A stretch of DNA of 64,000 bases from Candidatus Nitrosocosmicus arcticus. Its GTDB lineage: Archaea; Thermoproteota; Nitrososphaeria; Nitrososphaerales; Nitrososphaeraceae. The stretch's first letter is position 1. Each line of letters starts with the position of its first letter. The DNA is taken from NCBI RefSeq assembly GCF_007826885.1, contig NZ_ML675580.1, positions 62,001-126,000 of the forward strand, written 5' to 3'. Position numbers and translations under genes: made by a program. This document shows positions 25,650-35,300 of this stretch, piece by piece. Below the pieces are notes generated by a model, which worked only from the letters and a program-made list of their open reading frames with translations, was not told where the DNA came from and made no database searches.

Positions 25650-28034
25650 TTAATCAAATTGAGGAATTTGAGTATAGAAAACTTTAGTTACGGAGTCATA
25701 AGTTTCTTTCAATAATTCTAAATATCTTTTCGTATCGTATCGAATATTGTGTTCATCAACTAGCTCAATTGGTATTGCCCTTTCCAAGAAATTCTCATTA
25801 TAAAAATTTGTAATTATGTATTTAATTTCTTCGCCCGCATTCAAGGATTTCCCATTGCTAGTTAGTCGTTTTAAAACGCAGTTTTCAATTGTCTTTCTAT
25901 CCGCATATTCACTACTTTCTTTTGATATCCTTTTGGTAAATATCAGATCGGTGTATGAAATTTTTTTAGAGCATATTAAATTTATATATTTTTTATATAC
26001 ACCCTCTAAAATTGGTAAGCTTTTCGTGATTTCATGAATGTTGTTATAGGCAGACATTATCTTCATTAACTCCTCTTGAAAATTGACAAAGAGTTGAGGA
26101 GTATCATGTCTTCTTGTTTCAATTCCCCTCATCTTTATGGCCCCATCTTCAAAAACGCCAAAGTATCTATTTAGCGCTGGTAAGCCAGGATTGATCTTAG
26201 ATGAATCGAAAACGATCCATTTGTATACTCCTTCAAAAGATATGGAAAAACCTGTTTGTTTCTCTATGTCTTTTTTTAAATTAACATATCGATGTGCAGT
26301 ACCGGCTGCAAATAATGAATGTTCTGCATTATCGACTTCGCTTATCCAGATAGAGTCCACAATACCATGAATTACATCAAATCCGTGTTTCTCTGCTATT
26401 TTAGACGTTTTCACTAGTATATCTCTAGCAAATGCGCATACAGTGATGTGGGCATCTATCCTACCAAACTTTGAGTTGCTAAATCCCAGATATCCAAAGG
26501 AAGTAACTAGGATCCATTTTAATGCAGTTTGTCTGTTGTCGTAACAATTTTTTAAATACTCATCATTCTTAGATATACACAGGTTTTTTCTTTTTTTGTA
26601 TTCTAACCGCCTATCTAGAACCGTTTTAAGAGACAAAGGCACTATTCCTATCATTTTTTTGCACAAGTGATAAAGATGTTCAAGTTCTGGAACTTTGTTA
26701 TCCGTTTCTGATTTACAGCATTCACAATTAATTGTGTCCGAAGAAACATTTTTCTTTAGCATGATATTTGGATAAAGAGATACAAAATCAAACTCTGCTA
26801 CTTTGTCATATGCTCCAGGTTTTGACTCAAAAACAAATCCCCCTCTATCTGCCTTTAATAAATCAGAAAATGACTTGAAGATTTCCGACGTTATGGGTTT
26901 CCAAGGTATCAATACATCCTTTTTATAAGCATTATAAAAATACAAACTACTTAGACATTTCCCTATAGTAGATCTTGATGCTAGTTGCAATGGAATTCTG
27001 CAAACTCTGGATAATTCTGCTAATCCATCCAATCCATTGTCCTTGTAAATAAATGAATTGTTAATGTCTATGTGAATTCGGCCGTATAAAAAAAACGGCC
27101 GTGGTTTGAAATACACTTTTCCGTAAGAGATGTATGATGTTGAGGACGAATCATTAGATCTAATACTTTTATGTGGAAACAACTTGTTTTTCTTTATTAA
27201 ATATTCTAGATTCGATTCGCGATTCAAATTTACCAATAATTGATTTTCAACCTTGTTGGCCTTGGCTCTGTGAAGTAAATATGGAAACAAAATTTGGTCT
27301 CCACCTTTGGTTAAAATAATATCAGGATCTATTCTGTTAATTTCATAAGAGAATTCTAATATTGTTTCACGTTCATCTTCTTCAGATATCGAAAATTCTT
27401 CCTTGATTAGGTTATCTTTTTCAAAAGAGATAATCTTTATCTTTAGAATCCTATCCCTGAAATCATTTCCTATTGATTTTCTCTCCGAAATTAATTCAAA
27501 TGATAGAAATTTAAAATTTGGAATAATGTAATCAAATGAGTCAATATCGTCGTTCTTATCGTTAACTACTTGATATATTTTAGTTCGCGCTGAATCCGCG
27601 GATCTTACTTCTTCTATGTCGTATAATCCAAGTGGATAGAGATCCTTCTCGTATAAGAAAGACTGTTCAGGTGATATATCTACATTGTATAGTCGATAGT
27701 GTCCAAATCTAGTAGAGAGTTTTTCAATTCGTCTTGCTAAATTTAATATCTGCAGTGAATCAGACAAAGTTAATCTCAGAGATTCATTCCTTTTACGATG
27801 ATCAAAAGTAACGGAAGAAGGATACTCAAACTTGTATTCAAATCGGTATTCCTTAATTGAGGAAGAAATTTTACTATCCCCTACCAAGTCTATTAATTCG
27901 GATTTTAGGTCTGACGCTACATATATTGAAGGAGACCATGAATACTCTAGTCTTTTTACACTACCATTTCTTTCTTTTATCCATAAAATTATTCTATCTT
28001 TTATATGATAGATATCAAATAGCCAACCATTCAT
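25650..28034 (-). CDS. Divergent family B DNA polymerase
   Basis: 794 residues from ATG 28034 (a TTG four codons earlier is open). Polymerase motif A is intact (EFDFVSLYPNIML, Asp416). Motif B is recognisable (LKWILVTSFGYLGF, about 504-517). Motif C reads HGIVDSIWIS: the second catalytic Asp (560) is kept, but Ile replaces the first Asp of the usual YGDTDS. The exonuclease region is also altered: ExoI is FLSFELISE instead of a DxE motif, and ExoII reads DPDIILTKGGDQILFPYLL. It is therefore not the main replicase. It resembles archaeal PolB2-type paralogues with degraded motifs. It may be a translesion or accessory polymerase. It shares a promoter element with the RadA-like gene at 34.3 kb. 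Confidence 0.88.
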   Translation of the reverse strand: MNGWLFDIYHIKDRIILWIKERNGSVKRLEYSWSPSIYVASDLKSELIDLVGDSKISSSIKEYRFEYKFEYPSSVTFDHRKRNESLRLTLSDSLQILNLARRIEKLSTRFGHYRLYNVDISPEQSFLYEKDLYPLGLYDIEEVRSADSARTKIYQVVNDKNDDIDSFDYIIPNFKFLSFELISERKSIGNDFRDRILKIKIISFEKDNLIKEEFSISEEDERETILEFSYEINRIDPDIILTKGGDQILFPYLLHRAKANKVENQLLVNLNRESNLEYLIKKNKLFPHKSIRSNDSSSTSYISYGKVYFKPRPFFLYGRIHIDINNSFIYKDNGLDGLAELSRVCRIPLQLASRSTIGKCLSSLYFYNAYKKDVLIPWKPITSEIFKSFSDLLKADRGGFVFESKPGAYDKVAEFDFVSLYPNIMLKKNVSSDTINCECCKSETDNKVPELEHLYHLCKKMIGIVPLSLKTVLDRRLEYKKRKNLCISKNDEYLKNCYDNRQTALKWILVTSFGYLGFSNSKFGRIDAHITVCAFARDILVKTSKIAEKHGFDVIHGIVDSIWISEVDNAEHSLFAAGTAHRYVNLKKDIEKQTGFSISFEGVYKWIVFDSSKINPGLPALNRYFGVFEDGAIKMRGIETRRHDTPQLFVNFQEELMKIMSAYNNIHEITKSLPILEGVYKKYINLICSKKISYTDLIFTKRISKESSEYADRKTIENCVLKRLTSNGKSLNAGEEIKYIITNFYNENFLERAIPIELVDEHNIRYDTKRYLELLKETYDSVTKVFYTQIPQFD

Positions 28035-28047
28035 GGTTATCAGCAAG

Positions 28048-28230
28048 TCAACCGTAAACTAATGAGGCTAATAGAAAATCTTGAATATATTTAATCAGAT
28101 TAGTTTGTTTTTGGTGATGTAGGTACTGACCCATGCTTAATAAAATAATTTTACCCAAAAGAGAATAGAATTCTATTTTGTTATTCGAATTAATATACAA
28201 AAGAGAAAGTATATTCGAGATTATTGTCAT
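28048..28230 (-). CDS. Possible 60-residue leader protein of the PolB operon
   Basis: An open frame from ATG 28230 to a TGA 14 bases before the polymerase ATG. MTIISNILSLLYINSNN is hydrophobic, the middle is mixed, and the end is DFLLASLVYG. No family recognised. Support is positional: the ATG lies at the distance expected for a leaderless start from the TATA box of the shared promoter, and the same arrangement exists at 35254. It may be a regulator, a partner peptide, or simply leader sequence. Confidence 0.4.
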   Translation of the reverse strand: MTIISNILSLLYINSNNKIEFYSLLGKIILLSMGQYLHHQKQTNLIKYIQDFLLASLVYG

Positions 28231-28276
28231 ATTGATAAATGTTAGAACATGTTTATATTTATTACGCTGCGTATTA
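28226..28276 (-). promoter_or_regulatory. Shared palindrome-TATA promoter element, PolB copy
   Basis: Read on the minus strand: TACGCAGCGTA (28263-28273, a perfect 11-base palindrome around the central A), four bases, ATATAAAC (28251-28258), then 20 bases to ATGAC at 28230. It matches 35250-35300 at 43 of 51 positions, and all spacings are identical. The palindrome directly before BRE/TATA is a plausible operator for a repressor or activator. Confidence 0.8.
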
Positions 28277-34262: not shown

Positions 34263-35123
34263 TCATGTTTCTCTTGACAAGTCTGTATCGAAGTCTATGA
34301 GTGCTAATTGTTGTATGTTAACGCGATTTCTTAATCTGGGGTTATGTATTAGTAATTCTATGATAAAAGCTTCGTTTTTATTTTTGTTACTATCAGGAAA
34401 GTGCTTAACCTTGATAGCATTATTGAATTTAGATGTTATAGAACTATTCACAATATTTTCACAATCATTATAAGTTAGAATTACAAAATATTTTACTGAA
34501 AGACTTATCAAAACATCTATCATTTCAGTCACTATATTTACATTATCCTGAAGAGCACTATTTGATTTTGAATAACCGTTATTTCGGTGTTTTTTTATTC
34601 CCCTAAGAGAAGATGAGGAAACCAATGTGTCAAATAAGTCTACAATTATAATCTGCAATTGGTTACCCATTTCTCTAGTTATTTTAGGAAGTTCATAAAT
34701 TAATATATTAGCCAATTGATGAAATGTAAATGCTCTCGCAATAATGATCTTATCAAGAATATTGCCTACGTCTATTTCCTTCTTTATCGCTTGATTGACC
34801 AAACCAAGATAGATATATCCCAGATTGTTTCCATTTCCAGCGTCTATTATTATAGTTCTTTTCTTTTGTGTTTTACCACCGTTTCTCTTTGTTTCAGATG
34901 TATGATAATCTATGCAAATTTTTGGTATAAAACGATTTAAAAAATTGCTCCCTTTATGGGATTGATTTTGGATACAGATATTTTTCTTGTCTGAAAAAAA
35001 AAGAAATCTGTCGATTTCAGGAATATCAAATAATTTCCTGTTAATATCATTAAATTCATCAAAGGCTATAAAAAAATTATTATCTAAAACATCTCGATTA
35101 TCTTCGTTATTATATATTTGCAT
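34263..35123 (-). CDS. RadA/RecA-like paralogue without a Walker A loop
   Basis: 286 residues from ATG 35123. The middle matches the RecA/RadA core in order: a strand ending in an acidic residue (RTIIIDAGNGNN, residues 89-100), then ILDKIIIARAFTFHQ (122-136; RadA has NIYVARAYNSNHQ), then a Walker B-like strand LQIIIVDLFDTLV (155-167), then KYFVILTYND where RadA has VVVTNQ. The N-terminal part lacks a GxxxxGKT loop; only GGKTQKK (82-88) hints at one, so ATP binding is doubtful. It is comparable with ImuA/SulA-like or RadA-paralogue accessory proteins. It shares a promoter element with the divergent PolB. Confidence 0.65.
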   Translation of the reverse strand: MQIYNNEDNRDVLDNNFFIAFDEFNDINRKLFDIPEIDRFLFFSDKKNICIQNQSHKGSNFLNRFIPKICIDYHTSETKRNGGKTQKKRTIIIDAGNGNNLGYIYLGLVNQAIKKEIDVGNILDKIIIARAFTFHQLANILIYELPKITREMGNQLQIIIVDLFDTLVSSSSLRGIKKHRNNGYSKSNSALQDNVNIVTEMIDVLISLSVKYFVILTYNDCENIVNSSITSKFNNAIKVKHFPDSNKNKNEAFIIELLIHNPRLRNRVNIQQLALIDFDTDLSRET

Positions 35124-35152: not shown

Positions 35153-35254
35153 TTATGCAGTTTCCTTTCTATCCAATATATATTTGGAGATTTTTCTTAT
35201 TGGCTTTGGAGTGTTAATAACGGCCAAATTTATTGATTTTTTTCGTTTGGTCAT
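35153..35254 (-). CDS. Possible 33-residue basic leader protein
   Basis: MTKRKKSINLAVINTPKP continues to RKISKYILDRKETA and a TAA 29 bases before the RadA-like gene. Rich in Lys and Arg. Its ATG lies at exactly the same distance from the shared TATA box as the leader ORF of the PolB operon. No family; support is positional. Confidence 0.4.
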   Translation of the reverse strand: MTKRKKSINLAVINTPKPIRKISKYILDRKETA

Positions 35255-35300
35255 ATCATCATATGTTATAACATGTTTATATGTCTTACGCTGCGTATTA
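35250..35300 (-). promoter_or_regulatory. Shared palindrome-TATA promoter element, RadA-like copy
   Basis: On the minus strand: TACGCAGCGTA (35287-35297), four bases, ATATAAAC (35275-35282), 20 bases, then ATGAC at 35254. 43 of 51 bases match 28226-28276, with no gaps. Conservation covers the palindrome and TATA box and the following CATGTT, and is lost beyond the start codon, so it is a regulatory element and not a duplicated gene. Confidence 0.8.

Follow-up and report, generated by a model that had tools for sequence, protein, structure and literature searches.

A probable PolB2 mutasome with dispersed genes and a shared promoter box in Candidatus Nitrosocosmicus arcticus

Sulfolobus PolB2/Dpo2 is among the closest described counterparts of the locus examined here. 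Dpo2 (PolB2) purified from its native host polymerises robustly without exonuclease activity and extends mismatched and lesion-paired ends (PMC8764526). Its expression is damage-inducible, and it is required for damage-induced mutagenesis (PMC7390963, PMC8764526). An HxxxD motif has already been published as the hallmark of PolB2 (PMC8764526, PMC11791011); it has been argued that the second Asp of motif C is the metal ligand and that PolB2 enzymes without the first Asp are robust polymerases (PMC8764526). The published mutasome model comprises iRadA, PPB2, and PolB2 (PMC11791011). Thaumarchaeota are absent from the list of PolB2 holders in a 2014 survey (PMC4104785).

We analyzed a stretch of 64,000 nucleotides from Candidatus Nitrosocosmicus arcticus (hereafter the window), in which a sequence-only reading had described a family B polymerase with motif A DFVSLYPNI, motif C HGIVDS, and FELIS at ExoI. 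All of these features were recovered when the protein was re-read in its intact frame of 794 amino acids. The strand, the neighbouring partner gene, and the promoter box described below are additions of the present analysis.

25650..28034, minus strand: polB2, a family B DNA polymerase of the PolB2 group; 794 aa, HGIVDS, exonuclease residues lost
26352..26369, minus strand: the motif C HGIVDS codons, residues 556-561 of the 794-aa protein (position computed from residue numbers)

The open frame on the minus strand (25650-28046) extends over 798 codons from a TTG, and translation probably begins with the ATG at 28034, in agreement with the gene end given in the sequence-only reading. The Pfam family DNA_pol_B matches the protein with an E value of 5.7e-39, and the match to the exonuclease domain is marginal (E 9e-6). 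Motifs A, B, and C are all present. ExoI has no DxE, and ExoII reads TKGGDQILF as compared with YNGDxFD in active enzymes, so that its N and D residues are gone. The predicted structure has the full B-family fold (mean pLDDT 80), with archaeal replicative PolB structures as top matches (E about 1e-37). The protein resembles Sulfolobus PolB2/Dpo2 (PMC8764526, PMC7390963) in its HxxxD, in the absence of exonuclease residues, in the D(K/R)GG that precedes motif A (kept as ADRGG or VDKGG among orthologues), and in having iRadA and PPB2 as associates. In contrast, the Sulfolobales-type PolB2 proteins compared here are 555-591 aa long, whereas the window protein has 794 aa and an exonuclease region that is longer but can still be aligned; the genes for all three proteins lie side by side in Sulfolobales and are dispersed in the window genome.

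Orthologues of polB2 were found in all 15 Nitrosocosmicus genomes, in most genomes of the family, and in several other families of the order, and the marine-type genomes of the order that were sampled gave matches at the PolB1 level only. The inspection of motif C across the clade that the sequence-only reading had proposed returned H-[GA]-I-[VI]-D-S in 30 of 30 aligned orthologues. None of the 30 has YGDTDS, and none has an intact ExoI DxE pair, the Asp alone being kept in some (FDII). In a set of 20 orthologues, no variation occurs at D416 of motif A, at D560, which is the second motif C Asp, or at many residues of motif B and the thumb. In a tree of PolB1, PolB3, and PolB2 sequences gathered from the same phylum, the window protein falls inside a 30-row clade (SH-aLRT 99), which nests in a 41-row PolB2 group that includes Sulfolobales-type PolB2 (SH-aLRT 92 for this split). 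We take the short PolB2 rows of the larger group to be of the Sulfolobales and Desulfurococcales type. Motif C has the His and lacks the first Asp in 41 of 41 rows of this group, and YGDTDS is found in PolB1 and PolB3 rows. A separate small clade (L240, L261-L264) carries YG[AD]VDS, YADVDS, or YGDTDS. Tree and motifs together place the window protein in the PolB2 group, as the sequence-only reading had guessed.

Because the change in motif C is shared by the orthologues and the PolB2 group, sequence comparison identifies it as a feature of the family, known before, and not as decay. Pairwise dN/dS values for polB2 range from 0.06 to 0.42 and therefore support purifying selection, in line with the earlier statement that the frame is under selection. 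If the gene were instead decaying, with catalytic residues lost in the window copy alone, a degraded polB2 fragment on contig C21 of the same genome and the four in-frame stops in polB2 of a relative (G012) would be in keeping with it. However, the window frame is intact, dN/dS is well under 1, and all orthologues share the motif; the orthologue comparison refutes decay, to which we assign a negligible probability. The C21 fragment (C21:437-988, minus strand; L003) contains seven in-frame stops and is 54% identical to the window protein, and a similar decayed copy is present in G013.

It is likely that the PolB2 encoded by the window gene is functional and serves as the catalytic subunit of a mutasome whose dispersed genes stand under one shared promoter box. 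We infer polymerase activity for the window protein and, by analogy with Dpo2, it most likely extends primers past lesions without proofreading. Extension of lesion-paired ends might follow once a Y-family polymerase has inserted opposite the lesion; a single Y-family polymerase gene is present in the genome. The loss of proofreading predicted in the sequence-only reading fits the published Sulfolobus Dpo2 data (PMC8764526). Its suggestion of changed metal binding was the weak part, since the second Asp, the residue argued to be the metal ligand (PMC8764526), is present here. Loss of the first motif C Asp and of every tested exonuclease residue could also point to a catalytically dead protein that serves only as a scaffold for iRadA and PPB2 on damaged DNA, consistent with the term inactivated that Makarova et al. 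applied to the group in 2014 (PMC4104785). We consider such a role improbable, given that D416, D560, and the motif B and thumb residues noted above are invariant and that the biochemically active Sulfolobus Dpo2 has the same HxxxD change (PMC8764526). With respect to the polymerase itself, a published family is confirmed, and what the sequence-only reading had found is correct but known.

Elsewhere in the order, other genera encode a conserved set of three families immediately upstream of polB2. F1 proteins have about 250-350 aa; F4 and F5 proteins both have about 90 aa, F4 with the sequence MGRTIPSFR... and F5 lacking the MGRT arm. Two genes of the window genome (G000) are relevant to this set.

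34263-35123, minus strand: iRadA, 286 aa; a degenerate homologue of RadA/Rad51 that lacks Walker A and has the FxxA-type motif FFIAF
G000:C16:14966-15502, outside the window: PPB2; 179 aa, MGRSIPSFR start

The F1 profile matches the genome's own RadA (hhalign E 7.8e-13), and the predicted structure of the window iRadA (mean pLDDT 72) has a Foldseek match to RadA/DMC1 in the PDB (E 3e-9). By these profile and model comparisons, F1 is iRadA, a predicted RadA fold without the ATPase site. Profile matches likewise indicate that F4 is PPB2: the F4 profile finds MGRT/MGKT proteins adjoining distant (Sulfolobales-type) polB2 genes, with E values of 1e-30 to 1e-5. Members of the PPB2 family have an MGR[TS] start with Arg3, and most also have Arg9, in agreement with the published arm, and the protein of the window genome has both arginines and Ser for Thr at position 4. 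F5 is an armless PPB2 relative (profile E about 1e-17). Several genera (L050, L052-L055, L057) have another PPB2-like gene, without the arm, either close to PPB2 and polB2 or between them.

The distribution of both partners follows that of the polymerase. PPB2 is present in 39 of 40 genomes with polB2 and in 2 of 21 without it; for iRadA the corresponding counts are 35 of 40 and 1 of 21, where five genomes seem to lack the gene but at least two of them (G038, G045) were missed for want of sensitivity, the gene being seen there by neighbourhood. PolB2, iRadA, and PPB2 would together form a PolB2 mutasome. The published mutasome operons (PMC11791011, PMC4104785) have the same three components, with an MGRT/MGRS PPB2 and an iRadA lacking the ATPase site. 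In contrast to these operons, most PPB2 copies of Nitrosocosmicus consist of two fused PPB2-like domains (about 180 aa), and a common promoter box is found at genes that lie scattered. A 226-aa Rad51-like protein on C12, with Arg for Lys in Walker A, was rejected as iRadA because its homologues also occur in genomes without polB2 and it is itself unlinked to polB2; we regard it as RadB-like. A second full-length RadA (348 aa, C8) was rejected because its Walker A is intact. PPB2 is multiplied in G004 and G036 (11 and 10 matches, several broken and some with a box), which suggests repeated transfer or duplication. The window iRadA is 65% identical to that of its nearest relative (G014:C78:3800-4651), compared with 97% for polB2, and one of the two iRadA genes has therefore probably been exchanged.

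Genes of the polB2, iRadA, and PPB2 types usually make up a single operon, and they are adjacent in other genera (L050, L053-L055). In the window genome, the mutasome genes occupy three separate loci and a single operon is absent: iRadA lies 6.2 kb from polB2, and the sole PPB2 copy found, on C16, is a fusion of an F4-type and an F5-type domain. A trace of the missing neighbour is found directly before polB2.

28048..28230, minus strand: 60-codon leader ORF upstream of polB2, with a remnant of the second PPB2 domain as its C-terminal half

When the leader was compared with the PPB2 proteins adjoining polB2 in G006 and G004, its score was reached by 0 of 2000 shuffles. We rejected the 60-aa leader as a new small gene, its second half being this remnant. 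The presence of the remnant implies that PPB2 probably once stood upstream of polB2 and has since been deleted. An ancestral iRadA-PPB2-polB2 operon would thus have been split into three loci in this genome.

The separated genes share a promoter box, of which two copies lie in the window.

28262..28273, minus strand: box TACGCAGCGTAA before polB2, then TATAAACATG; the leader ATG is 31 nt past the box
35286..35297, minus strand: box TACGCAGCGTAA before iRadA, then TATAAACATGTTATAACAT; the micro-ORF ATG is 31 nt past the box
35153..35254, minus strand: 33-codon basic micro-ORF MTKRKKSINLAVINTPKPIRK..., between the box and iRadA

An 11-bp palindrome, TACGCAGCGTA, and one additional A make up the box. 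Genome-wide counts were obtained by sequence-pattern searches of the genomes. In the genome (2.64 Mb) the 12-mer has exactly three copies, one upstream of each of polB2, iRadA, and PPB2, with a chance expectation of about 0.15 occurrences (estimated from base composition), and the reversed 12-mer has zero. Across the 15 Nitrosocosmicus genomes, the pattern TACRCWGCGTAA gave 60 matches (55 places, five of them counted on both strands), as compared with 4 when the pattern was reversed. A TATA-like element often follows the box, and 43 of 62 distinct sites have an ATG 29-33 nt past the box. Box-to-ATG spacing of this kind is expected for leaderless archaeal transcripts. Expressed relative to a leaderless start, the putative operator TAC[AG]C[AT]GCGTAA is located at about -43 to -31. 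When up to one mismatch is allowed, the box precedes iRadA in 13 of the 15 copies in the genus, and each of the 14 stand-alone PPB2 copies examined (L093-L106, of which 12 belong to the genus and one each to G036 and G021) has it 42-54 nt upstream. Where polB2 is located directly behind iRadA and PPB2 it has no box of its own, as fits an operon. In G005 and G007, where polB2 stands alone, the box preceding it is present in weakened form only. A search of the whole family outside the genus showed no enrichment (22 matches versus 47 reversed).

On the basis of sequence, we read the box as a promoter/operator shared within a PolB2 mutasome regulon, with the regulation itself presumed. It is a shared cis element at the functionally linked genes polB2, iRadA, and PPB2. 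Each of the three loci would have its own promoter, with TACGCAGCGTAA directly upstream of the TATA element; one regulator acting at the box would lead to the three subunits being made together, and induction of the three genes by DNA damage is probable. Whether this extends to a Nitrosocosmicus damage regulon with a new palindromic operator, uniting the dispersed mutasome genes with small proteins that include a 32-aa microprotein, we judge to be evenly balanced. The main rival reading is that the box is a specialised core-promoter element, such as a BRE variant served by a dedicated TFB, in front of genes that are constitutive or otherwise regulated. Its position just upstream of TATA, where a BRE is expected, and its fixed distance to the start codon would suit such an element, and some box-led genes have no known repair role. 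An 11-bp palindrome, however, suits a dimeric regulator better than TFB, and all three exact copies in the genome serve one complex. We therefore hold a core-promoter role to be possible but rather unlikely.

The box as a damage operator can be compared with two known arrangements. The DDRE (ANTTTC) regulon of Orc1-2 in Sulfolobales (PMC9738581) is likewise archaeal and uses a short shared promoter element; this likeness concerns the proposed role only, as DDRE differs in sequence and the box here is an 11-bp palindrome with fixed spacing to TATA and ATG. The E. coli Pol V mutasome with its LexA/SOS box is alike in outline: a polymerase specialised for bypass works with a partner of the RecA family and with a small accessory protein, and the box is palindromic, although its polymerase family and accessory protein are unrelated to those described here. 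Our literature search for the box sequence returned chance matches in unrelated papers only, and, as far as we searched, a shared box on a dispersed PolB2 mutasome has not been described. The analysis adds a putatively complete PolB2 mutasome in terrestrial ammonia-oxidizing archaea, for which the literature searched discusses PolB1, PolD, and PolY. It also adds a cis element, open to testing, that each piece retained when the operon came apart. If the proposed damage regulon is real, the box would play in an archaeon the part of the SOS box, in a system other than that of Orc1-2/DDRE. A damage operator would open the DNA-damage response of these globally important archaea to study and offer a handle on the regulator; cultured species exist in the genus Nitrosocosmicus.

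Small ORFs also accompany the box. Micro-ORFs similar to MTKRKKSINLAVINTPKPIRK... precede iRadA in other Nitrosocosmicus, and further boxes in the window genome lead short frames elsewhere.

G000:C16:20295-20306 (L210 / L092), minus strand: box with the 32-codon ORF MNKKKQMIKLKIISRSPYLMGIRKRIRIHSEK at +31; many Nitrosocosmicus genomes have both ORF and box conserved
G000:C2:71660-71671 (L209), minus strand: box, with a 73-aa protein, MMADKVEITVTDLAKKHPGKSGYEGMYSVAKH..., encoded 30 nt downstream; the protein matches no Pfam family significantly

The 32-codon ORF MNKKKQMIKLKIISRSPYLMGIRKRIRIHSEK is a candidate microprotein on sequence criteria. The basic 32-aa product (MNKKKQ..KLKIISRSPYL..IRKRIKIH) is box-led in eight genomes and frameshifted in a ninth; dN is 0.11-0.20, with synonymous sites saturated or nearly so in this short ORF. 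The micro-ORFs before iRadA are related to it. An assignment of the 73-aa protein on C2 to YegP/DUF1508 was rejected, as Pfam gives it no support. A box-led helical protein of 73-83 aa, MESIITSIRQLLDELEEK..., with no clear family, is found in three relatives (L196, L197, L202). Finally, a second shared inverted repeat, ATGTTnTAACAT, occurs at window positions 28239-28250 and 35263-35274, behind the TATA elements of polB2 and iRadA, and also before iRadA in other Nitrosocosmicus.
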